This document shows, one piece after another, positions 4,468-22,344 of a DNA stretch of 24,218 nt. The notes below the pieces were generated by a model. It was not told the DNA's origin, searched no databases, and saw only the letters and a program-made list of their open reading frames with translations. The stretch comes from a virus. Made by a program: the position numbers and the translations under genes. How positions within the stretch are numbered: position 1 is the stretch's first letter; every line of letters begins with the position of its first letter. The stretch lies in IMG/VR virus record IMGVR_UViG_2162886015_000009, positions 1 to 24,218 of that record; one strand, given 5' to 3'.

Positions 4468-6078
4468 ATGCCCACCCTGGATGAGCTCAAGCTGCAGCGC
4501 CTGCAGTACCTGCAGGAGCTGCAGTCCAAGGCTGCCGGCCTCAAGAAGGGCGTGGATCAGTACCTCCACGACCCGGTTGGCTTCATGCACGACTGCGTTG
4601 ACTGGGGTGAAGGCAACAGTGGCCTGACCTTCTACCAAGAGGACATCATGGCCCTCCTGGAGGAGAAGCGTCGCGTCTCCGTCCGTGGCCCCCACGGTCT
4701 CGGCAAGTCTGCCGTCTCCGCGCTCACCGTGCTCTGGTTCGCCATCACCCGTGACGCCGCCGGCGTCGACTGGAAGATCGTGACCACCGCGGGCGCCTGG
4801 CGTCAGCTCATCAACTACCTGTGGCCAGAGATCCGCAAGTGGTCGATGAAGCTCCGCTGGGAGAAGATCCGCAACCATCCGTTCAACGGCAGCGAGCTGC
4901 TGAACCTGGCGCTTCGTCTCAAGCATGGCAACGCCTTCGCGGCCGCTGCCTCGAACCCTCAGCTCATTGAGGGTGCCCACGCCGACTCTCTGCTCTTCGT
5001 CTACGATGAGTCCAAGGCCATCTTCGCCGGCACGTTCGACGCGTGTGAGGGTGCCTTCTCCGGCACCGGCGAGTCGTACGTCATGGCGCTCTCCACACCC
5101 GGCCCGCCACAGGGTCGCTTCTACGACATCCAGTCGAAGAAGCCGGGATACGAGGACTGGGCGGTCAAGCACGTCACGCTGGAAGAGTCCATGCGGGCCG
5201 GCCGTATCTCCCCGGAGTGGGCTGAGCAGCGCAAGCTCCAGTGGGGTGAGAACAGCGCCCTCTACCAGAACCGCGTCCTTGGTCAGTTCTACGCTGGCGA
5301 GGAAGACAGCGTCGTTCCTCTCAGCTGGGTGGAAGCGGCCAACGAGCGCTGGCACGAGTGGCAGCTCGGTGGCAAGGTCGACCCAGGCACGCCGCACACC
5401 CTGGGCGTAGACGTCGCCCGCAGCGGCAACGACAAGACCTGCTTCGCGATCCGGTGGGGACACGTCATCACCGAGATCCGCGACTACACTCACAACGACA
5501 CCATGGTCACCACTGGCCGCGTCCAGGGCATCCTGGAGAACGACCCGACCATGACCGCGATCGTCGACGTCGTCGGCGTGGGCGGTGGCGTTGTGGACCG
5601 CCTCCGCGAGATGAACGCGAAGGTGCAGCCCTTCACCGCGTCGGCTCGCAGTCGCAACCGCGACAAGACCGGTGAGCTCGGCTTCCTCAACACCAGGGCC
5701 GCCGCCTGGTGGAACCTGCGTGAGCTGCTTGACCCGTCAGCTGGCTCCGTCGTCTGTCTGCCACCCGATGACGATCTTCTGGGAGATCTTACGGCTCCAA
5801 AGGCCGCAGAGCCCCAGTCAGGTGGTAAGCTGAAGATCGAGTCGAAGGACGAGATCAAGAAGCGCATCGGTCGTTCCACAGACCGCGCCGACGCCGTCGT
5901 TCAGGCCTTCTGGACTGAGGCTGGCAGCTGGCACGACGCCTATGGCACAACCAAGTGCGACAGCTGCGGCCAGGCCTTCCTCACGAAGGTTGACGGCGTG
6001 GAGCGGATCAAGTGCCCGCATTGCGACGCTCTTGTCCTCGACGACGACGTTGACGACGAGGAGCCGACGGATGAATGA
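4468..6078 (+). CDS. terL: Terminase large subunit (ATPase/nuclease) with C-terminal zinc ribbon
   Basis: This 536-aa protein is the packaging motor. The ATPase half has a Walker A-like GPHGLGKS (residues 74-81), Walker B LLFVYDE (175-181) and a coupling-motif candidate ALSTPGPPQG (207-216). The RNase H-like nuclease half has GVDVARSG (D315), IVDVVGVGGG (D367) and STDRADAVVQAF (D472/D475), the usual acidic metal-binding triad. After the nuclease domain there is an extra ribbon, C497-x2-C500 ... C516-x2-C519 (KCDSC / KCPHC), and an acidic tail. The start at ATG 4468 follows AGGA (4457-4460), ten bases after terS ends. The stop overlaps the following start (ATG 6071). The Cys-rich tail is not part of the core fold. 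Confidence 0.95.
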   Translation: MPTLDELKLQRLQYLQELQSKAAGLKKGVDQYLHDPVGFMHDCVDWGEGNSGLTFYQEDIMALLEEKRRVSVRGPHGLGKSAVSALTVLWFAITRDAAGVDWKIVTTAGAWRQLINYLWPEIRKWSMKLRWEKIRNHPFNGSELLNLALRLKHGNAFAAAASNPQLIEGAHADSLLFVYDESKAIFAGTFDACEGAFSGTGESYVMALSTPGPPQGRFYDIQSKKPGYEDWAVKHVTLEESMRAGRISPEWAEQRKLQWGENSALYQNRVLGQFYAGEEDSVVPLSWVEAANERWHEWQLGGKVDPGTPHTLGVDVARSGNDKTCFAIRWGHVITEIRDYTHNDTMVTTGRVQGILENDPTMTAIVDVVGVGGGVVDRLREMNAKVQPFTASARSRNRDKTGELGFLNTRAAAWWNLRELLDPSAGSVVCLPPDDDLLGDLTAPKAAEPQSGGKLKIESKDEIKKRIGRSTDRADAVVQAFWTEAGSWHDAYGTTKCDSCGQAFLTKVDGVERIKCPHCDALVLDDDVDDEEPTDE

Positions 6079-6909: not shown

Positions 6910-9132
6910 GTGGCAGACCTTGAGCCAAGCGCACCGGTTCTTCCGGTGGTCATCTCCGCCAACGGCATGGGCCGTTACAACGACAACCGCAACGACGAGT
7001 GGCAGGAGGGCTTCCGCGACGTCCTCCACGGGCAGTCGGGCATCAACGCCAACGTCGGCTCCACGGGCCAGCGACTGCTCATCGGTCAGGACACCATCAA
7101 CCGCAACGTCGGTGACACGGGCCAGCGCATCATCGCCGGCCAGCGCATCACCGACGCGGAGATGAACGATGGCTTCCGTGACCTGAGTGGGGAGCACCTC
7201 AACCTCGCCAACGGTCAGCGCTTCACCGACCGTGCGGTCCAGGACGGCACGCAGGCTGGTCTGACCGGCCAGCGCTTCACCGACTCGCGCATCTCGAACG
7301 GCGTGGAGAACCTGTCCAACGGTCAGCGCTTCACGGACGCCCGCATCGCGGACGGCGTGGAGGGCCTCGGCCGTCAGGTCAACCAGGACGCCATGTACCT
7401 GAGTCGTGGCCAGCAGGCCACGGACGCCAACGTCAACCAGAACGCGTGGTGGGTCGACAACGACGTCAACCACGGGTTCCGCCACCTGTCGGGTGAGGTC
7501 AACGCCGTTGACCGTCACCTGGACGGCGAGATCGGCGAGGTCGGCGAGGCCGTCAACGGCAACGGTCGTTGGCTCGGTGACGGTCAGCGTCGCACGGACG
7601 ACAACGTCAACGCCAACGCGCGCTTCCTCGACCGCAACATCGACGAGGTCGACCGCGACGTTCTTCGCACCGGTCGCGAGAACGAGCGTGGCCAGCGCCT
7701 GACGGACGACAACGTCAACACCAACGCTCGCTGGGTGGAGCGGGGTCAGCACGACATCCACCGCCACATCGGCGAGGACGGTCGTGAAACCCGTCAGGAC
7801 GTTCGCGGCGAGGGCCGCGAGGTTCGTCGTGACGTCGGCGAGGTCGGCGAGGCTGTCAACAGCAGCGCTCGTTGGCTGCACGGTGGCCAGGACGCCAACA
7901 CTCGTTGGATCGGCGACCAGGTCAACTCGGACGCTCGCTGGCTCCACAGTGGTCAGGACGCGAACGCCTGGCGTCTCGCTCAGCAGGCTGGCGCTGACAC
8001 GCGCTACCTGGACCAGAACATCGACGCCGGTCGTCGGGACAACGAGCGCGGGTTCGGTCACACGAACCAGCACCTCTCGGACGCTGAGCGTCGCATCGAG
8101 AACCGCATCGGTGACAAGGTCGGCCACGTCGGCGAAGAGCTGGCGGAGTCCGTCGGCGACCTCGGTCGTCAGGGTGTCGACTCCGAGCGCCGCATTGAGG
8201 GTCGTCTGGCCCACAACGCGGAGGAGAACGCCGAGGACTTCTGCGAAGTCAACGAGAACCTCGGCAACGCCGAGCGTCGCCTGGGCAACAACGCGCGTGA
8301 CACCGCGCGGGAGACTCAGCTCCGCATCGCCGACACCGAGCGTCGCATCGAGCGTGGCGCCGACATGGCGGAGCTGCGTCAGACGAAGAACGCGGACGAC
8401 GCGGAGCGTCGCCTCCACGGTCAGATCGCCAGCCAGGTCACGCACAACCTCGAAGAGGTTGCGGAGCAGGTCGGCGACTTCGAGCGTCGCACCGCCTCCG
8501 ACTTCCGGGACACCGAGCGTCGCCTCGACAACCGCATCGACGCCTCCGAGCGTCGGGTGGAGGGCGTCGTTCGCCACAACCTGGAAGAGCTCAGCGAGCA
8601 GCTCGGCGATCACGACCGCCGTGCCTCCGAGCGTCTGGCGCAGATCGCGTGTGAGGTCGCCCACGAGGGCGACAAGACGCGCGGCCTGGTGGAGAAGGTC
8701 GAGCTCGAGGGTCGTCTCTACCTCCGTGACCGCGAGGACCGCACGCACGACCTGGTGCGCACCCTGGCGGACCGCAACCTCGACGAGATGCGCGGCTTCG
8801 AGCGTCGCACCTACGAGAACGAGGTCAAGACTCGCGACCTCATCCGCCACGAGTGGGAGGAGCACCGCGAGCGCGACTTCAACGTCGCCCTGGCGGACCG
8901 CAACCGCCTGCGCACGAAGATCGACATCCTCGAGGCCGAGGACCGCGAGTGGCGGCGTCGCCCCCACCACGGTGGCGGCAACATCAACGTGAACACCTAC
9001 GTTGAGGACGTCGTCGACGACCGGAACTTCCAGTCGCAGGCTCAGCGTCAGCGTCAGCGCTCGTTCCTCCAGGACGAGGACGTTCGCGTCGGCGGCCGTG
9101 GCGGCAACGGCGACCGCGGCATGACCGTCTGA
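6910..9132 (+). CDS. 740-aa repetitive alpha-helical rod protein (putative virion fibre/stalk)
   Basis: It starts at GTG 6910 shortly after AAGAGG (6901-6906). Nearly all of the protein is hydrophilic repeats. Residues about 102-153 carry three copies of an 18-residue unit beginning GQRFTD. Residues about 170-350 carry related units with NVN-NAR-(F/W)L and ARWLH-GQDAN motifs. Residues about 392-580 are built on ERR-(I/L/V) starts spaced 33, 29, 22, 22, 26, 11 and 11 residues apart, a mainly hendecad pattern. Spacings of 18 and 11 favour nearly straight coiled coils. The C-terminus is Gly/Asn-rich (GGGNINVNTYVEDVVDD) and then Gln/Arg-rich. There is no signal peptide and no enzyme motif. Its place between terL and the portal, followed by fibre-like genes, suggests a virion stalk or head fibre; this is inference. 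A scaffold or internal core protein is the alternative. Confidence 0.8.
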   Translation: MADLEPSAPVLPVVISANGMGRYNDNRNDEWQEGFRDVLHGQSGINANVGSTGQRLLIGQDTINRNVGDTGQRIIAGQRITDAEMNDGFRDLSGEHLNLANGQRFTDRAVQDGTQAGLTGQRFTDSRISNGVENLSNGQRFTDARIADGVEGLGRQVNQDAMYLSRGQQATDANVNQNAWWVDNDVNHGFRHLSGEVNAVDRHLDGEIGEVGEAVNGNGRWLGDGQRRTDDNVNANARFLDRNIDEVDRDVLRTGRENERGQRLTDDNVNTNARWVERGQHDIHRHIGEDGRETRQDVRGEGREVRRDVGEVGEAVNSSARWLHGGQDANTRWIGDQVNSDARWLHSGQDANAWRLAQQAGADTRYLDQNIDAGRRDNERGFGHTNQHLSDAERRIENRIGDKVGHVGEELAESVGDLGRQGVDSERRIEGRLAHNAEENAEDFCEVNENLGNAERRLGNNARDTARETQLRIADTERRIERGADMAELRQTKNADDAERRLHGQIASQVTHNLEEVAEQVGDFERRTASDFRDTERRLDNRIDASERRVEGVVRHNLEELSEQLGDHDRRASERLAQIACEVAHEGDKTRGLVEKVELEGRLYLRDREDRTHDLVRTLADRNLDEMRGFERRTYENEVKTRDLIRHEWEEHRERDFNVALADRNRLRTKIDILEAEDREWRRRPHHGGGNINVNTYVEDVVDDRNFQSQAQRQRQRSFLQDEDVRVGGRGGNGDRGMTV
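7213..7368 (+). repeat. Three 18-codon repeats starting GQRFTD
   Basis: GQRFTD occurs at residues 102, 120 and 138 of the rod protein, exactly 18 codons apart, with a following (V/I)xxG position. Eighteen residues equal five turns of an ideal alpha helix, so the side chains repeat on one face without supercoil. A looser GQR-ITD copy lies upstream at residues 78-82. Confidence 0.75.
8080..8650 (+). repeat. Hendecad (11-residue) repeat block
   Basis: ERR-I/L/V/T motifs recur at spacings of 33, 29, 22, 22, 26, 11 and 11 residues. The clearest units are ERRTASDFRDT and ERRLDNRIDAS, each 11 residues long. HNLEE-(V/L)-EQ-(V/L)GD appears twice about 45 residues apart. The block marks a right-handed or straight coiled-coil section. 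Confidence 0.7.
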
Positions 9133-10552: not shown

Positions 10553-10572
10553 CGGCGAAGAAGGGGGTGACC

Positions 10573-13500
10573 GTGGCCAAGCGCGGATCCATCATCAGCA
10601 GTGCCAAGCACATCCCAGGCGGTGCCCGGCCGACCAGTGCGCCACAGGGTGGCGGCCCCAACTTCGGCTCGATCTCGCCACTGGCACGCTCGCTGGATAC
10701 CGGCAGCAGTGGCGGCGGCTCCTGGAACAACTCGTACGGTGGCTTCCTGCCCCGTCCGACCGACGCCTTCACTGAGGGCGCGTTCGGTCCGTTCAGCCCG
10801 ATCCTCCCGGTGCCCGTTGACGCCCCTCCCCCGGGCGCTGAGCGGGCCGAGCCGAGGCGCGAGGAGTACCGGGTTGGCTGGAACCTCCCAGTCGGTCAGC
10901 CGGGCACAGAGGGCATCAAGCTCGCTGACTTCTCGACCCTGCGCACCCTGGCGGACCTCTACTCCGTGGCTCGTGCGTGCATCCAGCTCCGCAAGTCGGA
11001 GATCCGTGGCCTCGAGTGGGACATCATGCCCACATCCGACGCCGCGAAGCGCATGCGCAACGATCACGACGCCATGCGAGACTTCGGTGAGCGACGCGAG
11101 AAGGCCGTCAAGTTCTTCCGCCGCCCCGACCCCGACTACTTCTCGTGGAACAGCTGGATCGACGCCGTCCTCGAAGAGGTCTTCGTCTTCGACGCGCTGT
11201 CCATCCTGATCCGCCCAAAGTGGCTCAAGGGCCGCGGCAAGGGTCTCCTGGGCAGCGACCTGGACAGCCTGAACCTGATCAGCGGCCCGACCATCCGACC
11301 GCTGTACGACATCAACGGTGGCTTCCCCCGACCACCGGCACCGGCGTATCAGCAGTATCTCTACGGCGTGCCGCGCTCAGACCTCATGACGATGATCACG
11401 CAGCGCGACATCGAGCAGGCCGGCCTCAGCGGCTCGGAGCTGAAGCAGTTCCGTGGCGATCAGATGCTCTACCTGCCGATGGTGCCGCGACGCTGGACGC
11501 CATACGGCTTCCCGCCCATCGAGCGTGCACTCATCCCGGTCATGTCAGGCCTTCAGAAGCAGGCCTACCAGCTGGACTACTTCCGTGAGGGCACCGTCCC
11601 CGCGGTCTTCGTCTCGCCGGGTGGCAGCAACCAGAACATGACACCGAACCAGATCCGCGAGCTTCAGGACGCTCTCAACGCGATCGCCGGTGACCCAGCG
11701 TGGAAGCACAAGATCATCGTGCTGCCTGCCGACTCGCAGGTCCACCCGCAGAAGAACGCGCAGATCGCCGACCAGTTCGACGAGATCGTCATGAACCAGG
11801 TCTGCATGGCGTTCGACGTGCAGCCGATGGAGCTCGGCATCATGCCGAAGGTCAGCGCCACGGTCTCTCCCGGCGCGGCCAATCAGATGAGCAAGGCCAC
11901 GCAGGACATCCAGGAGCGCAAGGCCACCAAGCCGATCCTGACCTTCCTGGCCGACATCATGACCAGCGTGCTCCACAACATCGCCGGCCAGGAAGACATG
12001 CGCTTCGTCTTTGAGGGCCTGGAGGCGGAGGACGACGAGGCGCTCAAGACTGAGCTCCTGGTCAAGCAGATCGGTGCCGGTCTTCGCTCCATCGATGAAG
12101 GCCGCGAGGAGCTCAACCTGCAGCCGTGGGGTCTCCCCGAGACCTCCGACCCAGGTTGGTCCACGCCAAACGGCTGGGTGCCGCTGGTCGAGGCCACGGA
12201 GGCACGTCTCACCGACGCTCTCACCGGGCCACTCATGGAGTTGCCCGAGGGTGCGTCTCGCGCCACGCAAATGCTCACCGGTGCCGCGCCGCAGGGCATG
12301 CCACCAAGCCAGCAGGCGATCGGTTACGTGCCGCCAACCGCTCCTGGTGCTGCGGACAAGCCCGGCAAGACGCCGCCGGAAGCGGGCACCGCTCCGTCAG
12401 CCAGCGCTGCTGGTCTGAAGCCGCGTGTCAACCCCGCCATCTCGCGTCGTCCTGGTGCCATGGGCACGGGGCAGAGCACGGCGGCAGCCACGCCTGGTCA
12501 CTCCGCGGCGGGTGGCAGCAAGACACCCGCCAAGGACGACGACAAGACGAAGCCTGCAGCCAAGAAGCCGGCGGCCTCGCCCGGCAAGGCCAAGGCGATC
12601 GAGTCTGAGCTGGACGCTCTCAGCCGCCACGTGCGGAAGGGCCGCATGCTCTCCACCTGGACGCCTCGTCACGTCAGCCACAGTCTGCTCGCCCGCATCG
12701 CGGAGGCAAACGTGGAGGGCGGCGACATCGGCATCGCGATCAGCGTCGTCAAGGCGACTCGTCGAGTCGACATCGACGGTCAGACCGTCTGGCTCGACCA
12801 GGATCTCAACCAGATGGAGAACGCCGCTGGCGGCGGTGGTCGGGTCTTCCCGGCTCACGACGTTGACGACACGGAGGTGCCGGGAGGCACCCCTGGCTCC
12901 ACAGCCGGTGGCGAGCCACCTCGCTGGGCGCCCGCTGAGGGCACCAGCTCGGGTGACACTCGCAGCCAAGGCACGTTCGCTCACCACCCTGAGGGTGGGA
13001 ACGACGCCGCCATGCCGCCTGGGCGAAGCCGTCCAGGCAGTCAGGGCGGTGGCCCCAGCATGCCGAACGTGGACGTCTGGCCGCGCGTTGAGGGCGGCCC
13101 GGGTGGCGGTCGAGACCAGGCTGGCGTGAGCAGCCCACCCGGCGCCGTCAAGGGCGTCTTCGGTGGCGCCCCAGCGGCTGAGGTCATCGCCGTCATGTCC
13201 AAGAACTTCCCGGGCAAGGCGATCAAGTGGGTCAAGGACGCGAAGTGGACGCGGGAGATCGTGCCGCTCCACGACGTGGACTTCGACGGGGAGGCCAGCT
13301 GGGCCGCCCATCACAACACCGCTCACGTCCAGGAGTTCGTCGACAAGCTGAACAGTGGCAAGCGACTCAAGCCGGCCATCCTGGTCAGCGTCCCCGGCAA
13401 GCATCGTCTGCGGATCGTGGACGGTCATCACCGTGCCTTGGCCTACCGTCAGCTCGGCAAGCCGATCGACGCCTTCGTGGGAGCCGTCCCCGACGGTGAC

Positions 13501-14190
13501 GACCGTTGGATGGTCACGCACTCGTCGCAGCTCCACCAGAGCGCCGACTCGCTCAACAAGAGCGAGAAGGTCAGCCAGGCGTCGGTGCACTACCGCAAGG
13601 CCACCGACCCCACGAAGCGCTGCGACACCTGCACCATGTTCCGCGCGCCAAACGGCTGCACCCTGGTAACCGGGGTTATCAAGCCGGGCGACACGTGCGA
13701 CCGCTGGTACGGTGGCAACGCCACCAAGAGTCACGAGCCACCCGTCGCCGCTGGCCTCACGGTGATGGCCAGGGACACCGGCCGCATCCTGATGCTCCAG
13801 CGAGCACTCGTGGACGACGATCCCGCGGCGGGTCACTGGGAGTTCCCCGGTGGTTGCCTCGAGAACGGCGAGACGGGCCTCATGGGGGCGATCAGGGAGT
13901 GGCAGGAGGAGACAGGTTGCCTCCTGCCGCCGGGCCGTCTCGCGGGCACCTGGACCTCCGCTGACGGGGTCTACCAGGGCTTCGTCTACCTCGTCGACGC
14001 TGAGGCTGAGGTCGACTGGGACGGTGGCCGAGATGAAGTGATCAACCCGGATGACCCGGATGGTGACTACTTCGAGGCGCTGGCCTGGTGGGACCCTGAT
14101 CAGCTCACGAACAACCCTGCCGTGCGGTCGGAGCTCCTGCGTGACGTCGCAGAGATCCAGCGGCTGGTGAGGGAAGCGCGTGGCGAGTGA
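10573..14190 (+). CDS. Portal protein fused to ParB-like and Nudix hydrolase domains
   Basis: I chose GTG 10573 (AAGGGGG five bases upstream); GTG 10567, two codons earlier, is possible. About 1205 aa, more than twice a normal portal. Residues about 100-560 are the portal core, with LADLYSVARACIQLRKSEIR, then MLYLPMVPRRWTPYGFPPIE and QVCMAFDVQPMELGI, typical of siphovirus portals. Residues 560-865 are an Ala/Pro/Gly-rich linker. Residues about 870-985 hold a ParB-like nuclease-type domain (LKPAILVSV, RIVDGHHRALAYRQLGKP). A Cys cluster (RCDTCTMFRAPNGC...CDRWYGG, about 1017-1048) follows. Residues about 1060-1205 form a Nudix domain with a complete Nudix box, G-x5-E-x7-RE-W-Q-EE-T-G. The portal is the DNA-entry ring; the enzymatic tails would be displayed in each of 12 copies. 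The reading frame is uninterrupted. Confidence 0.9.
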   Translation: MAKRGSIISSAKHIPGGARPTSAPQGGGPNFGSISPLARSLDTGSSGGGSWNNSYGGFLPRPTDAFTEGAFGPFSPILPVPVDAPPPGAERAEPRREEYRVGWNLPVGQPGTEGIKLADFSTLRTLADLYSVARACIQLRKSEIRGLEWDIMPTSDAAKRMRNDHDAMRDFGERREKAVKFFRRPDPDYFSWNSWIDAVLEEVFVFDALSILIRPKWLKGRGKGLLGSDLDSLNLISGPTIRPLYDINGGFPRPPAPAYQQYLYGVPRSDLMTMITQRDIEQAGLSGSELKQFRGDQMLYLPMVPRRWTPYGFPPIERALIPVMSGLQKQAYQLDYFREGTVPAVFVSPGGSNQNMTPNQIRELQDALNAIAGDPAWKHKIIVLPADSQVHPQKNAQIADQFDEIVMNQVCMAFDVQPMELGIMPKVSATVSPGAANQMSKATQDIQERKATKPILTFLADIMTSVLHNIAGQEDMRFVFEGLEAEDDEALKTELLVKQIGAGLRSIDEGREELNLQPWGLPETSDPGWSTPNGWVPLVEATEARLTDALTGPLMELPEGASRATQMLTGAAPQGMPPSQQAIGYVPPTAPGAADKPGKTPPEAGTAPSASAAGLKPRVNPAISRRPGAMGTGQSTAAATPGHSAAGGSKTPAKDDDKTKPAAKKPAASPGKAKAIESELDALSRHVRKGRMLSTWTPRHVSHSLLARIAEANVEGGDIGIAISVVKATRRVDIDGQTVWLDQDLNQMENAAGGGGRVFPAHDVDDTEVPGGTPGSTAGGEPPRWAPAEGTSSGDTRSQGTFAHHPEGGNDAAMPPGRSRPGSQGGGPSMPNVDVWPRVEGGPGGGRDQAGVSSPPGAVKGVFGGAPAAEVIAVMSKNFPGKAIKWVKDAKWTREIVPLHDVDFDGEASWAAHHNTAHVQEFVDKLNSGKRLKPAILVSVPGKHRLRIVDGHHRALAYRQLGKPIDAFVGAVPDGDDRWMVTHSSQLHQSADSLNKSEKVSQASVHYRKATDPTKRCDTCTMFRAPNGCTLVTGVIKPGDTCDRWYGGNATKSHEPPVAAGLTVMARDTGRILMLQRALVDDDPAAGHWEFPGGCLENGETGLMGAIREWQEETGCLLPPGRLAGTWTSADGVYQGFVYLVDAEAEVDWDGGRDEVINPDDPDGDYFEALAWWDPDQLTNNPAVRSELLRDVAEIQRLVREARGE

Positions 14191-14443: not shown

Positions 14444-17071
14444 ATGGCAGCCACGCTGACGTCAGCCGGTGAGCTGACCTTCATTTCGTTCCCGATCACC
14501 AAGTTTGAGGAGACCGGCGACGGCAACCTGTACGTCTATGGCAAGGCCACGGACGGCAGCGTCGACAGCGACGAGCAGATCGTCGACACCGAGTTCTCCG
14601 GCAAGGCCATCGCCAACTGGCTGGCTACCGGCGCCAACGTCCGCGTTCAGCACAACGCGCAGCGGGACCCAGCCGGTGTGGGCGTGGAAGTCAGCACCGA
14701 GTCCGACGGCTCCACCTGGGTGAAGAGCCTGGTGGTGGAGACCGAGGCGAAGAACCTGGTTCGGCACAAGGCACTCCGTGCCTACAGCGTCGGCATCGCC
14801 CGACCCAAGATCGTGCGGGACAACGTAGCTCGGAACGGCCGCATCGTCGACGGTGAGATCGTCGAGATCAGCCTGGTCGACCGACCCGCCAACAAGAACT
14901 GTGGCATCCAGCTGGTGAAGGCTGACAAGGACGGCAACGTCGAGTTCAGCGGCAAGGTCTTCGGCGCTGCCGACGTGCTCACCAAGGGTGCCTCCGCCAC
15001 GGTGGAGATCACGACGCCGGTCAACCCCGCCTTCAGTCCAGCCGATCTGGCGAAGCTGCTGCATCACCGCGCCACCGCGGAGAAGCGGCAGATGGACGCC
15101 AACGTGGGTGGCGGCGTCGATCGCGACAAGATCCCCGGTTCCGACTTCGCTGGCCGCGACCGCTCCTTCCCGATCGTCACACCTGGCGACGTCAGCGACG
15201 CCGCCAGCTCCATCGGTCGTGCCGGAGCAGACAACTACTCCAGCGATCAGCTGCGAGCGAACATCAGCCGGATCGCTCACCGCAAGGGCCCAGAGTTCGT
15301 GGCGGCGCTTCCGGAGTCCTGGAAGAGCGAGATGGAGGCTGTTGTGGCCAAGGGTGACGGTGCAGTCGTCGAGGACGACAACGACGACAACGAGGGTGGC
15401 GAGGTCAAGGCCGCCGACACCGGCAAGGACGGCGAGGAGAACGTCGCGGAGCCAGACGAGACCAAGGGCGCCAAGGGCGGCAAGACCTGCACCGGTTGCG
15501 GCAAGGGCTTCGACTCCGACTCCAAGCTGCGCAGCTGCCCAGGCTGTGGCAAGGCTCTTCCCAAGTCCGGTGGTCAGGACAAGGAAGACCTTGAGAAGGG
15601 TCACGGCGGCTGCAGCTGCGGTGGCGGCTCGTGCGACGGCTGTGGCAACTGCGCCGGCGACTGCGACAAGTGCATGGGCATGAAGACGGACAAGAGCGTC
15701 AGCTGCCCAGGCTGCTCTCAGGCGGTCACCACCAAGTTCTGCGGCGGCTGCGGTCACCAGGTGATCACTGTCGAGAAGAACGACACCCCTGGCGCGGGCG
15801 TTGTGGGCGTGGGTGCCTCCAACGTGGAGCCAGTACCGGCTCACCGCGAGCCTGACGGAACCGACATCGAGGCACTGGAGGCGGACGCAAGCATGCCGAC
15901 CACCCCCGACGCCAGCGTCAAGGCGGCACAGCGGCTCAAGTCCGTGGGTGTCCCCTCCGACATGGGCGTCATCCACGACCTGACTTGCGCGGCCTTCGAC
16001 CCCGTCGAGGTTGCCAAGACGTATCCCAACGAGAACCTGCACACGATCGACGTCGACGCGTGGCAGCAGAAGGCCCTCGACGCCGCGGCCAACTCGCCGC
16101 TGGCTGAGGCGCAGAAGATGACCGAGCTCTGGCAGCACGTGATCACGCTCAAGGGCGCCGATCACGAGATGCTGGACGAGGTCCGCGAGGAGTCGCACAA
16201 GTCCTTCCAGGACGCGAACCCCGGCCCGGGCACCTTCCCCACGCCTACGGAGCTCAGCCCCGTTCGATTCCGTCGCCCCGTCCTCACGGCCGGCCAGGCG
16301 AGTCACGGAACCGGCTACGACGGCCCCAACACCGCTCAGGTCCCGACGGACGGCGTCACGGCGGACGACTTCAACCGTGGTCCGCTGACCGACGGCCAGG
16401 CGGCGCAGAGCCCATCCAACAAGGGCCGCTCGTTCTACCGCAACGTGCAGCGTGACTCGGCTCGCAGCGCTCTCGCCGCGATGCACGACCACATCGCGCA
16501 GACCTTCCCCGACCTGTGCTCCATGCACGAAGATCACCACCCTGGTGCGGGTCCCGACGCCAACGCGCCGGCCACCCACGTGGGCAAGTCCGTCGAGGCT
16601 CCGGTGGAGTCCGTCGTTGAGCCCACCACCACGGTGACCCCTGAGCCCGCGGCGGAGCCGGTGGCTGAGGTGAAGAAGAGCAAGAAGGACAAGAAGATGG
16701 TCACGAAGGCGGCTACCGTCGACGCCGACCTCATCAAGTCCGCGGTCATCGACGCTCTCACGCCGCTGGCCACCCAGGTTGAGGAGCTCACCAAGGCTCT
16801 CAAGGACGAGCAGGCGAAGAACGTCGAGCTCGCCAAGACGGTCGATGAGCTCTCCAACCTCCCCGACCCCACGGTCGCAGCGTTCAAGGGTGTGGCTGCC
16901 CCTGACGCTCTCAAGTCTTCGACGTCGGTGGCGTCGACCGTTGCCAGCGCCGCGGAGCGGACGCAGGCGGCACTTATGGCGGCCCTCACTGAGGACGCTC
17001 GCCACAGCCCGGACCCAAGCGAGCGGGAAGCCGCTTGGACCAAGCTCTACCAGATGAGCGGCATCCAGTAA
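14444..17071 (+). CDS. Capsid maturation protease fused to zinc-ribbon array and scaffold domain, 875 aa
   Basis: ATG 14444 follows GAGGAG. Residues about 10-160 form a prohead protease of the HK97/XkdF type: YVYGKATDG...EQIVD..FS.KAI, NVRVQHN (His70), ALRAYSVGIARP (Ser115) and DGEIVEISLVDRPANKNC. His and Ser are the expected catalytic pair. Residues 240-297 carry an FPIVTPGDVSDAASSIGRAG...RIAHRKGPEF...LPESW module seen beside other phage proteases. Residues 349-436 are a Cys-rich array of CxxC knuckles (CTGCGKGF, CPGCGKAL, CSCGGGSCDGCGNCAGDCDKC, CPGCSQAV, CGGCG). After a long charged linker, residues about 740-875 have a basic KKSKKDKKM stretch and a coiled coil (VEELTKALKDEQAKNVELAK), like a capsid scaffold. 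The combination suggests one polypeptide that scaffolds and then cleaves the procapsid. The zinc array has no known need in this role. Confidence 0.85.
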   Translation: MAATLTSAGELTFISFPITKFEETGDGNLYVYGKATDGSVDSDEQIVDTEFSGKAIANWLATGANVRVQHNAQRDPAGVGVEVSTESDGSTWVKSLVVETEAKNLVRHKALRAYSVGIARPKIVRDNVARNGRIVDGEIVEISLVDRPANKNCGIQLVKADKDGNVEFSGKVFGAADVLTKGASATVEITTPVNPAFSPADLAKLLHHRATAEKRQMDANVGGGVDRDKIPGSDFAGRDRSFPIVTPGDVSDAASSIGRAGADNYSSDQLRANISRIAHRKGPEFVAALPESWKSEMEAVVAKGDGAVVEDDNDDNEGGEVKAADTGKDGEENVAEPDETKGAKGGKTCTGCGKGFDSDSKLRSCPGCGKALPKSGGQDKEDLEKGHGGCSCGGGSCDGCGNCAGDCDKCMGMKTDKSVSCPGCSQAVTTKFCGGCGHQVITVEKNDTPGAGVVGVGASNVEPVPAHREPDGTDIEALEADASMPTTPDASVKAAQRLKSVGVPSDMGVIHDLTCAAFDPVEVAKTYPNENLHTIDVDAWQQKALDAAANSPLAEAQKMTELWQHVITLKGADHEMLDEVREESHKSFQDANPGPGTFPTPTELSPVRFRRPVLTAGQASHGTGYDGPNTAQVPTDGVTADDFNRGPLTDGQAAQSPSNKGRSFYRNVQRDSARSALAAMHDHIAQTFPDLCSMHEDHHPGAGPDANAPATHVGKSVEAPVESVVEPTTTVTPEPAAEPVAEVKKSKKDKKMVTKAATVDADLIKSAVIDALTPLATQVEELTKALKDEQAKNVELAKTVDELSNLPDPTVAAFKGVAAPDALKSSTSVASTVASAAERTQAALMAALTEDARHSPDPSEREAAWTKLYQMSGIQ

Positions 17072-17133
17072 CATGGCTGCCGGCATCACTCCGGCATATG
17101 CCACCTGTATCGCTTTCGCGAAAGGAGACTCTC

Positions 17134-18948
17134 GTGGCTGACATCGTCACAGAGCCATCACTCACCCAGCCGGGTGACGCGCTCAAGAGCGCCGCGTCCG
17201 AGGCCTCGCGCTACTCGCGCTCGGGCGACATGCTCAAGAACAAGATGACCCACCTGGTCAAGGGTGCGGGGTTCGTCGGCAACGGCAACACCGCGCTCAG
17301 TGACCCCGCGGTCGTCACCACCAAGGCCCACCAGGCCACGATGGAGCTGCGCGCGGAGACGCACCGCGGCTACACCAACCGTGCCTCGGTCGTCAAGTCC
17401 ATGAACCCGGGCTTCCTCGACCAGTTCGGCAACCTGAAGACGGCACTCACCATGCCGTCCGTGGGCGAGCAGATCAGCCAGCTGGTCGGCGGGATGCCGG
17501 GTGGCGCGGACGCGCTGAAGTCCTTCACCGCGGGCAACCTCGGCATCGGCACGGTCTCGGGCCTGGTCCCCTTCGACCTGCTCGCGCCGTCGCGCCTGAT
17601 CTACCCGGTCTACACGGTCTTCCGCAACAAGCTGCCACGTCCGGCCGGCCAGGGCACGTCGCGCATCGAGCGCGTGTTCACCGGTATCTCGGGCTCGCAG
17701 ACCGGTGGCCAGGGTGTCCTCGACATCTCCATCCCTGAGCTCGTCCAGACGGGTGGCACGCTCGCGTCCACCTCCTGGCCGCTCAACCTGCCGGGCGCCG
17801 GCTCGCAGACCGAGGTCCAGCTCAACGTTCCGTACAAGTTCTTCGGCCTCACCGAGTCGCTCTCGTGGCTCGCGCAGTTCGCCGGCCAGGGCTTCGAGGA
17901 CATCTCCGCGCTCGCCAACCTCATCCTCCTCCAGGAGATGATGCTGGGCGAGGAGTACCAGATGCTGGCGGCCACGTCGCAGCCTCTGGCAACTCCGGCA
18001 ACTCCGACCGCCGCGGTTCGCACCGCAGGCTCGAACGAGACCGCGCTCAACACCACGCTCACCAACGTGGCCGTCGTCGCCAAGAACTACTACGGCGGCA
18101 CCGCGGGCTCCGCGAACTCGGGCGCCTTCGTGGTCGGCGCCGGCCAGGTCGTGGACGTCACGATCACGCCCGTCGCTGGCGCACTGTCGTACGACATCTA
18201 CGCCTACGACGGCGCGAACTACTACCTGATGGCGTCGGGTGTCGGTGGCACCAAGTACACGCTGCAGGGCTCGCTCCCGGCCACGACGACCAAGCCCGCC
18301 GCGGACACCGGCACCGGCTCGGCGACGCGCATGGAGGGTCTGATCCCGACCCTCACCGGCAAGTCGGCCTCGGCTGGCGTCTACCCCGCCAACTGGCAGG
18401 GTGGCTACGTCAACCAGAACGTCGGCCAGCACCTCAACTACAACGTCCTCTACACCGCCCTGCAGGGGCTGTGGGATGGCGCTCCCGGCTCCAGCAACAA
18501 CCCCGGCGCGTTCCGCGCCGACCCCGCGGAGATCGTCGGCGAGGGTGGCGACATCATGCGCCTCTCGAACGACATCATCTCGCAGGGCTCGGCCACGAAC
18601 TACCGCCTGTTCCTGGACCAGGCCGAGGTGGGCGGCGCCCGCGTCGGTGCGGCTGTGTCGGAGTTCCAGAACCCGATCACCCGCTCCATCCTGAAGCTCG
18701 TGGTTCACCCCTGGCTGACCCAGGGCACCGCGATGCTCATGACCTACCAGCTCCCGCAGACGTGGACCAACGTGGCCAACGCCTGGGAGATGACGATGGT
18801 CCAGGACTACGTCAGCATCGCGTGGCCGGTCATCGACGCCACGTTCCGCTACTCGCTCTTCATGTACGGCGCGCTCGTCTCGCACGCCCCGCAGTACTCC
18901 GGCATCCTCCAGGGTCTGCAGGTCAGCGACACCACGCCGTTCAGCTGA
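17134..18948 (+). CDS. Major capsid protein (HK97-like) with Ig/FN3-like insertion
   Basis: GTG 17134 lies five bases after AAAGGAGA, giving 604 aa; the frame is open further upstream but without a ribosome binding site. The N-terminal 120 residues are helical and charged, as in capsid delta domains. The core has LAPSRLIYPVYTVFRNKLPR, then the Gly-rich GISGSQTGGQG and VPYKFFGLTESLSWLAQFAG, with C-terminal LVVHPWLTQGTAMLMTYQLP and FRYSLFMYGALVSHAP. Residues about 280-397 are an insertion with TNVAVVAKNYYGG, VVDVTITPVAGALSYDIYAY and a YTLQGSLPATTTKPAADTG end, an Ig/FN3-like beta sandwich probably exposed on the capsid. Codons are almost all C/G-ending with many TCG serines, as for a very highly expressed gene. 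A strong hairpin follows. Confidence 0.9.
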   Translation: MADIVTEPSLTQPGDALKSAASEASRYSRSGDMLKNKMTHLVKGAGFVGNGNTALSDPAVVTTKAHQATMELRAETHRGYTNRASVVKSMNPGFLDQFGNLKTALTMPSVGEQISQLVGGMPGGADALKSFTAGNLGIGTVSGLVPFDLLAPSRLIYPVYTVFRNKLPRPAGQGTSRIERVFTGISGSQTGGQGVLDISIPELVQTGGTLASTSWPLNLPGAGSQTEVQLNVPYKFFGLTESLSWLAQFAGQGFEDISALANLILLQEMMLGEEYQMLAATSQPLATPATPTAAVRTAGSNETALNTTLTNVAVVAKNYYGGTAGSANSGAFVVGAGQVVDVTITPVAGALSYDIYAYDGANYYLMASGVGGTKYTLQGSLPATTTKPAADTGTGSATRMEGLIPTLTGKSASAGVYPANWQGGYVNQNVGQHLNYNVLYTALQGLWDGAPGSSNNPGAFRADPAEIVGEGGDIMRLSNDIISQGSATNYRLFLDQAEVGGARVGAAVSEFQNPITRSILKLVVHPWLTQGTAMLMTYQLPQTWTNVANAWEMTMVQDYVSIAWPVIDATFRYSLFMYGALVSHAPQYSGILQGLQVSDTTPFS

Positions 18949-21226: not shown

Positions 21227-21391
21227 ATGAGGCGTCGTCCTCGATGCAGTCTGTGTACCGGACGCAGTAAACGCATTCCGGTAGGACATTGCCAGTCATG
21301 CAACGCCTCTTACTGCGACAGACATGGTTCCTGGTTCAACAACAAGTGGCTGTGTGCGAAGTGCATACGGCGGGAGGGAGACTGTGAGTAG
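21227..21391 (+). CDS. 54-aa double zinc-finger microprotein
   Basis: ATG 21227 follows GAGAGG (21218-21223) and the stop TAG (21389-21391) shares a base with the next gene's GTG. The protein has four regularly spaced ligand pairs: C7-x2-C10, C22-x2-C25, C30-x2-H33 and C43-x2-C46, with an extra C53. This could bind two zinc ions. The first residues are basic (MRRRPRC). Third-position G/C is lower than in its neighbours (roughly 57%), hinting at a later arrival or low expression. It fills what would otherwise be an empty 200-base gap. Function unknown. Confidence 0.6.
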   Translation: MRRRPRCSLCTGRSKRIPVGHCQSCNASYCDRHGSWFNNKWLCAKCIRREGDCE

Positions 21392-22344
21392 TGGCCACGC
21401 CATACGTGACTCCCGGGATGATCACGAACGCCCCCACGGGCATCTCCTGGTCGATCATCCCCTTCCCTAAGTCCACGAGCAGTCAGCAGTTTGCCGAGCA
21501 GACCAACATCTGCTGGCGAGCCACGCAGATCGTGGATGGCTACGTGAACCAGGTCTTCCGGTCGACGATCGACAATGAGCAACGCAGCGGCCCCGGTGAC
21601 TTCCGCGTGAACGTGGAGCAGGACACCGGGGTTGTGCGCTGGATTCTCACTCGCTCGCCCGTCACCGAGATCCTGGCTGTCCAGACCGCCTCAGCCGCGA
21701 TGTTCCCGCGCCAGTGGACTCAGGTGCCCAGCGGCATGTGGGACATCGAGGTGCCGCTCATCGGCGTCTACGGCTCCTACGTCTCCGGCGGCAGCGGCGC
21801 CGCGGGTGGCCAGGCCATCCTCATCGCACCCGGCTACGCCGGCTGGGGCCTTGGCCGTCAAGGCTATCGTCTAGCGACCAGCTACCTCAACGGCTGGCCG
21901 CACGCTGGTCTCATGGCAGACGCGACGGCCGGCGCTTCCACGCTCACCGTCGACGACGTCACCGGCATGGCGGGTGCCACCGTCTTCATCTACGACGGGG
22001 CAAGCACCGAGCGAGTGCACGTCAACAGCGTGACCGCCGACGCCGACGTCACGCTCCCCAACGGGGGTGGCACCGCACCCGCTGGCCCAGGGACGATCAC
22101 GCTCTCCACGCCCCTGGCGTTCAATCACCCTGGAAGCAATCCCGCCACGGTGACCGTGAGTGCGATCCCCACCGACGTGCTCTGGGCGACGGTCCTAGCG
22201 GCCACGACTCAGGCACTTGACGCCGGCATCACCAGCGTCAGCATCCAGAACCTGCCGGGCTCCGAGACCGTTGGTGGCCACGGCATCCAGGAACTGATCA
22301 CCCACTATGAGCTCCTCCTGGAGCCATACAAGCGCGTGATCTAG
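21391..22344 (+). CDS. Head-to-tail connector/adaptor-like protein, 317 aa
   Basis: GTG 21391 overlaps the upstream stop by one base. The N-terminal part (ISWSIIPFPKSTSSQQFAEQ, TNICWRATQIVDGYVNQVFR) and the last helix-rich part (VLWATVLAATTQALDAGITS ... IQELITHYELLLEPYKRVI) look like a gp6-type adaptor that docks below the portal. Between them, residues about 176-256 form an inserted beta module (ATAGASTLTVDDVTGMAGA, FIYDGASTERVHVNS, FNHPGSNPATVTV), shared with the gene at 19406 and the tail gene at 23682. The position after the capsid genes and before gp10-like and tail genes supports a connector role; the exact ring (adaptor or stopper) is not resolved. Confidence 0.7.
   Translation: MATPYVTPGMITNAPTGISWSIIPFPKSTSSQQFAEQTNICWRATQIVDGYVNQVFRSTIDNEQRSGPGDFRVNVEQDTGVVRWILTRSPVTEILAVQTASAAMFPRQWTQVPSGMWDIEVPLIGVYGSYVSGGSGAAGGQAILIAPGYAGWGLGRQGYRLATSYLNGWPHAGLMADATAGASTLTVDDVTGMAGATVFIYDGASTERVHVNSVTADADVTLPNGGGTAPAGPGTITLSTPLAFNHPGSNPATVTVSAIPTDVLWATVLAATTQALDAGITSVSIQNLPGSETVGGHGIQELITHYELLLEPYKRVI

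Follow-up and report, generated by a model that had tools for sequence, protein, structure and literature searches.

The portal protein of an uncultured soil phage, encoded in virus record IMGVR_UViG_2162886015_000009 (24,218 bases, analysed as a whole and called the window below), continues past its portal core into a predicted ParB/sulfiredoxin (Srx)-fold domain, a predicted module of the high-potential iron-sulphur protein (HiPIP) type and a Nudix hydrolase domain. A clade of portals has conserved this fused tail, which is under purifying selection there and recurs beyond chance. A preliminary description of the window had read portal, ParB-like domain, Cys cluster and intact Nudix box in one uninterrupted frame, which was confirmed by the open frame itself and by Pfam, PHROG, AlphaFold2 (AF2) and Foldseek results. 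Beyond that description, we predict the Cys cluster to be a HiPIP module and find the ParB-like domain to be near-universal in the clade; the modules also change order between relatives and in some cases are separate genes. The open reading frame (ORF) and its parts, all on the plus strand, are:

10573-14190, plus strand: portal fusion ORF of 1205 amino acids, an open frame with GTG start (GTG at 10567 also possible) and stop at 14188-14190
10858-12207, plus strand: portal core, residues about 96-545 (PF04860, phrog_2662; kept across 49 portal ORFs)
12208-12588, plus strand: linker A, low-complexity and A/P/G rich by composition, residues 546-672
12589-12792, plus strand: conserved block of 68 amino acids, ELDALSRHVRKGR..STW.PRHV, residues 673-740 (our own hidden Markov model, HMM, matches nearly all relatives)
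12793-13173, plus strand: linker B, Gly/Pro-rich by composition, residues 741-867
12895-12927, plus strand: GSTAGGEPPRW motif within linker B, residues 775-785 (kept in about ten relatives)
13174-13563, plus strand: predicted ParB/Srx-fold domain with DGHHR and WAAHH, residues 868-997 (phrog_1033, PDB profile, AF2 with Foldseek)
13585-13728, plus strand: HiPIP-like Cys module, residues 1005-1052, cysteines 1017, 1020, 1029 and 1042 (PDB profile, NCBIfam, shuffles)
13729-14172, plus strand: Nudix hydrolase domain, residues 1053-1200, with the Nudix box at 1094-1115 and an NPDDPDGD motif at 1158-1165 (PF00293, phrog_1198, Foldseek)

GTG 10573, which is preceded by AAGGGGGTGACC, is the likelier of the two starts. 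Phage_portal (PF04860) matches residues 132-515 over its full length (model positions 2-321 of 321, E 3.6e-14 in Pfam), and phrog_2662 matches with E 6.7e-45 in PHROG. The complete portal model bears out the reading of a full portal, whereas the label "siphovirus" given with it was not shown. Similarly, the 300-residue low-complexity linker described earlier is low in complexity at residues 546-672 and 741-867, but it is not uniform, as the conserved block lies between these two stretches and the GSTAGGEPPRW motif within the second. Cleavage and docking are our guesses for the role of this motif.

The ParB region is matched by the ParB-like phrog_1033 (residues 914-967, E 8e-8 in PHROG), and a Pfam search of the fusion protein returned no ParB match. 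AF2 predicts residues 868-1000 confidently (pLDDT 89, pTM 0.81), and the leading PDB matches of this region in Foldseek, PadC (3.4e-4), sulfiredoxin (8e-4), Noc, ParB, SbnI and SerK, are all ParB/Srx-superfamily proteins. DGHHR at residues 950-954 is a GxxR-type phosphate-binding motif, whose D, G, second H and R are invariant in 38 sequences; among these relatives, domain positions D83, G84, H86, R87, W19, A44 and P67 are invariant. Predicted fold and motif thus both place the domain in the ParB/Srx superfamily. By profile, the nearest solved sequences are the free serine kinase SerK (9.7e-5) and SbnI (0.003), and NCBIfam also points to SerK, far under the family cut-off. The fold and DGHHR are common to the window domain and SerK (PDB 5x0b and others), but only about 65 residues align, and we do not claim SerK membership because the column of the catalytic Glu30 is Ala here, in the WAA motif; Glu30 was taken as the catalytic position from E30 mutant names among the PDB matches. 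A canonical ParB CTPase was likewise rejected, the domain of about 130 amino acids being followed by HiPIP, Nudix or the protein end, with no helix-turn-helix or dimerisation domain.

The Cys cluster reads C-x2-C-x8-C-x12-C-x2-W (residues 1017-1045). In an alignment of 17 relatives the four cysteines, Y10, R11, M25, L34, V35, G37 and W48 are invariant. A profile of the module run against PDB matched PioC (2.6e-6), 3h31 (1.2e-5), 1hlq (0.0045) and 1isu (0.0098), and all matches with E below 0.01 are HiPIPs. NCBIfam Feoxidase_Iro matches 15 of the 17 members (best 2.7e-11, under the curated cut-off), Iro being a HiPIP, and six members match DUF7140 weakly. When the PioC or 3h31 stretch was shuffled 999 times with the cysteines held fixed, no shuffle equalled the real score, and with the cysteines masked the real stretches scored above every shuffle, which rules out a match from Cys spacing alone. 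A zinc-finger reading was rejected, zinc-finger Pfam matches occurring in single members only. We therefore predict a HiPIP-type [4Fe-4S] module, from a four-Cys spacing identical to that of PioC (6xyv) and flanking residues similar to those of PioC, 3h31 and Iro. Those proteins are small free electron carriers, whereas here the predicted cluster would be part of a phage portal. Structure prediction, confident for the ParB region, gave low confidence across the Cys module. Viral HiPIP-like modules also occur outside portals, including in small stand-alone ORFs (L126:4617-5090; L127:5983-6207; Synechococcus phage S-SRM01 QPX48026.1, L124).

The Nudix domain is matched by PF00293 at residues 1057-1187 (E 2.4e-15 in Pfam), by a PHROG Nudix family (3e-16) and by phrog_1198 (E 6.6e-18); profile searches thus found both enzyme-type domains that the preliminary description had proposed. 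The box GCLENGE-x7-REWQEETG (1094-1115) holds every catalytic residue of GX5EX7REUXEEXGU, with W and C at the U positions. Foldseek places ADP-ribose pyrophosphatases and BdRppH on top, and sequence matches are scattered across MutT-like enzymes. Membership in the T4 NudE subfamily was rejected, since T4 NudE belongs to phrog_1185 (250 bits) whereas the window domain scores best with phrog_1198 (66 bits, against 37 bits for phrog_1185). In L013, L036 and L041, the Nudix domain contains an insertion rich in Cys and His, about 45 residues long (CPCG..AWG..WWSHADGSISHD), and the contig of the nearest relative L002 (G001) carries two more Nudix genes, at 21309-21665 and 103722-104081.

Relatives were collected with two portal-based scans and a deduplicated table, giving 49 ORFs uncut at the 3' end, the window included; all counts refer to loci returned by these scans and are not a census. 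Of these portal ORFs, 46 carry a ParB-like domain, 39 a Nudix domain by our own HMM (one more by Pfam) and 20 a HiPIP-like module, and 16 carry all three, so that the survey of portal homologues found the same tail in 15 further distinct ORFs. Portal, ParB-like domain and Nudix occur together in fourteen IMG/VR loci, thirteen of them with the Cys module as well (L005 is without it). The order is ParB-HiPIP-Nudix in the window and HiPIP-Nudix-ParB in L006-L015. A fused ParB domain is absent from three of the 49: L077 and L086 encode it as the next gene downstream, and L044 is without one. HiPIP modules are separate genes in L070, L074, L075 and L076, and in L038 a 2H phosphoesterase match (5e-7) takes the place of Nudix after a portal-ParB-HiPIP run. 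MuF is found in the same tail of many relatives, as judged from Pfam matches only; a Pfam search of the window portal protein gave no MuF match, and we do not class it with the MuF-toxin proteins. By eye, the tail at L044:1835-3052 with its PLDF..GELKT pattern is nuclease-like (no Pfam match), and a long extra stretch at the C-terminus of L057 (to 13634) is acetyltransferase-like (no Pfam match reported there).

Against L002, the ratio of nonsynonymous to synonymous substitution rates (dN/dS) is 0.11 for the portal, 0.08 for ParB, 0.19 for HiPIP and 0.18 for Nudix; linker A, 68% identical to its counterpart, stands at 0.29 and linker B at 0.18. In other pairs the values for ParB and Nudix are mostly 0.07-0.35, and the short HiPIP stretch comes near 0.9 in two pairs. 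Nudix domains that are 52-61% identical sit on portals only about 28% identical, and in phages Gilgamesh and Pam4 a Nudix domain is carried by a protease-type head protein; therefore, the module moves among head proteins. A search of a genome collection returned only one portal-Nudix locus, in Streptomyces prunicolor, and one weak archaeal match.

Enzyme tails on portal proteins have precedents. T4-like Nudix domains fused to MuF, portal and capsid protease, which may be packaged and injected, have been reported (Iyer et al. 2022, PMC9503650), and 2H domains fused to MuF or portal have been described in the same paper. The window shares with these fusions a Nudix domain on a portal protein in a head operon; it adds the ParB domain, a word absent from the main text of that paper, and the HiPIP module, which does not feature in the passages of it that were consulted. 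Gp3 of the cultured Arthrobacter phages Sonali and Mufasa8 (portal-Nudix-MuF) likewise joins portal and Nudix in one ORF, with Nudix 40-49% identical to that of the window; unlike the window, the portal is about 29% identical, MuF stands at the C-terminus, and no ParB or HiPIP module was found. The earlier view that the triple combination is unusual is therefore only partly right, as portal-Nudix fusions were already published; the set of ParB, HiPIP and Nudix on a portal appears to be new. ParB-fold domains have been described in virion-linked proteins (PMC5512222), and the portal fusion resembles such polyvalent proteins of the phage P1 DdrB type in being virion-linked and multidomain with a predicted ParB/Srx-fold domain. 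It differs in that this domain is nearest to SerK and SbnI by sequence and has DGHHR, no metallopeptidase partner was found, and the carrier is a portal. With several predicted enzymatic domains on one virion-linked polypeptide, it would count as a polyvalent virion protein, whose delivery to the host we infer. The main text of a 2025 survey of the ParB fold does not contain the words portal, Nudix or MuF (PMC12704722).

The HiPIP module on a portal, in particular, seems undescribed so far. Among virion proteins, iron-sulphur clusters have been reported for those of the tail hub and tail tip, namely the RcGTA hub and relatives of lambda gpL (PMC7296036). Titles and abstracts on HiPIP and phage held no report of a HiPIP in a virion, most subscription papers lying outside this coverage. 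The match suggests that this type of iron-sulphur protein occurs in phage heads, and a protein fold for a redox cofactor within the head of a phage, if true, is undescribed in the literature searched.

The portal ORF lies in a head operon, with the terminase gene upstream and a protease-like ORF and a capsid candidate downstream:

4468-6078, plus strand: terminase large subunit, its C-terminal end zinc-ribbon-like (phrog_2, E 1.1e-34)
14444-17071, plus strand: head maturation protease-like ORF (weak matches to phrog_3270 and phrog_80)
17035-18948, plus strand: major capsid protein candidate (phrog_13692, E 1.1e-53)

Terminases of Streptomyces and Actinoplanes phages share 49% identity with that of the window, which suggests an actinobacterial host, short of proof. 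The capsid candidate resembles a protein annotated as major head protein in Alicyclobacillus phage MMB025. The protease-like ORF (875 amino acids) contains zinc-ribbon-like and very Cys-rich stretches, and a repetitive ORF of 740 amino acids with GQRFTDARI-type repeats and no family match lies between terminase and portal genes (6910-9132). Rfam and tRNA searches of the window returned no features.

What might such a tail do? We see an about even chance that the portal carries enzymes as cargo, keeping them in the lumen of the head for use against nucleotide-type signals of the host. Going by what is general for portals, the C-terminus would face the lumen; therefore, each head would receive about twelve tails, beside the DNA exit. 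The modules may then act early in infection while on the ring at the exit or, alternatively, a head protease may cut the linker, so that they leave with the DNA and act afterwards. The substrate of the Nudix domain would be a nucleoside-diphosphate-X compound, for example an ADP-ribose or NAD-type signal; the ParB/Srx domain would have a nucleotide as ligand or substrate, and the HiPIP module would hold a [4Fe-4S] cluster in a redox or structural role. This proposal draws on the conserved single frame of portal core, ParB/Srx, HiPIP-like and intact Nudix parts, on the recurrence of the three modules in 16 distinct ORFs and of the ParB-like domain in 46 of 49, on the low dN/dS of ParB and Nudix against L002, on the movement of Nudix among head proteins, on relatives that permute, swap or unfuse the same modules, including 2H for Nudix in L038, on the presence of MuF, an internal head protein, in so many related tails, and on published packaging and injection proposals for Nudix and 2H on portal or MuF (PMC9503650, PMC5512222). 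That these enzymes might counter nucleotide-based defence, as suggested earlier, fits the published proposals for Nudix on head proteins and the 2H-for-Nudix swap, and is kept here as a conjecture. A bolder and unlikely version would have about twelve machines of ParB/Srx, HiPIP [4Fe-4S] and Nudix per head, in which HiPIP gates a nucleotide-directed enzyme, or senses redox for it, at genome entry.

Several points weigh against the cargo proposal. Packaging, cleavage, delivery, substrates and the targeting of defence signals are all conjectural. ParB (L077, L086) and HiPIP (L070, L074-L076) can be separate genes, and therefore these modules need not be joined to the portal to function. The Nudix matches spread over MutT, RppH and ADP-ribose families, and thus indicate no substrate. 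A portal-bound tail cannot enter the cell unless cut, and any cleavage site is putative. Finally, the near-universal presence of the ParB domain would suit a core function better than an optional counter-defence. Portals tend to be seen as passive gates for DNA, whereas the gate protein of this clade carries conserved, exchangeable enzyme modules; such a clade opens the idea of counter-defence packaged in the virion to testing, and the cultured portal-Nudix relatives Sonali and Mufasa8 offer a route to experiments.

Among other explanations, the tail might work late, in the cytoplasm or procapsid, for example by checking nucleotide pools or ADP-ribose compounds during assembly, and then be trimmed or merely stored in the virion. 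The position in a late head operon, the protease-like gene that follows and the ability of the modules to be free-standing genes of the same operon are all consistent with this, but recurrent fusion to portal, MuF or protease in distant phages is left unexplained, and we consider it doubtful. We think it rather improbable that the ParB/Srx domain is a nucleotide-switched DNA contact at the portal for packaging or ejection, to which Nudix and HiPIP would be accessory. This would suit a domain that is nearly universal while other modules vary, that has the predicted ParB/Srx fold with its GxxR phosphate motif, and whose fold frequently binds nucleotides (PMC12704722); however, the domain is a separate gene in two relatives and missing from L044, it has no helix-turn-helix or dimerisation domain, and its nearest sequence relatives are free serine kinases and not DNA-binding ParB. 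A polymorphic toxin-like tail, with exchangeable effectors on a head protein that target the host or competing cells in the way suggested for MuF toxins, would account for variable C-termini such as 2H and the nuclease-looking (L044) and acetyltransferase-looking (L057) tails, and for MuF in relatives; yet the window protein has no MuF match, no immunity gene was identified and Nudix is not a typical toxin domain, and we hold this to be very improbable. Mis-assembly or read-through of separate enzyme genes, for which two relatives with separate ParB genes might speak, is effectively refuted because all three modules recur together in 15 more portal ORFs, which are distinct and come from several metagenomes, every module is under purifying selection, and the frame is open, with no missed stop or break, in all relatives used for dN/dS.

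In some relatives the portal domain itself is split by large in-frame inserts (L019, residues about 662-1022; L086; L103:3179-4234). These are probably inteins or homing elements, because the inserts of L019 and L103 match LAGLIDADG_3.

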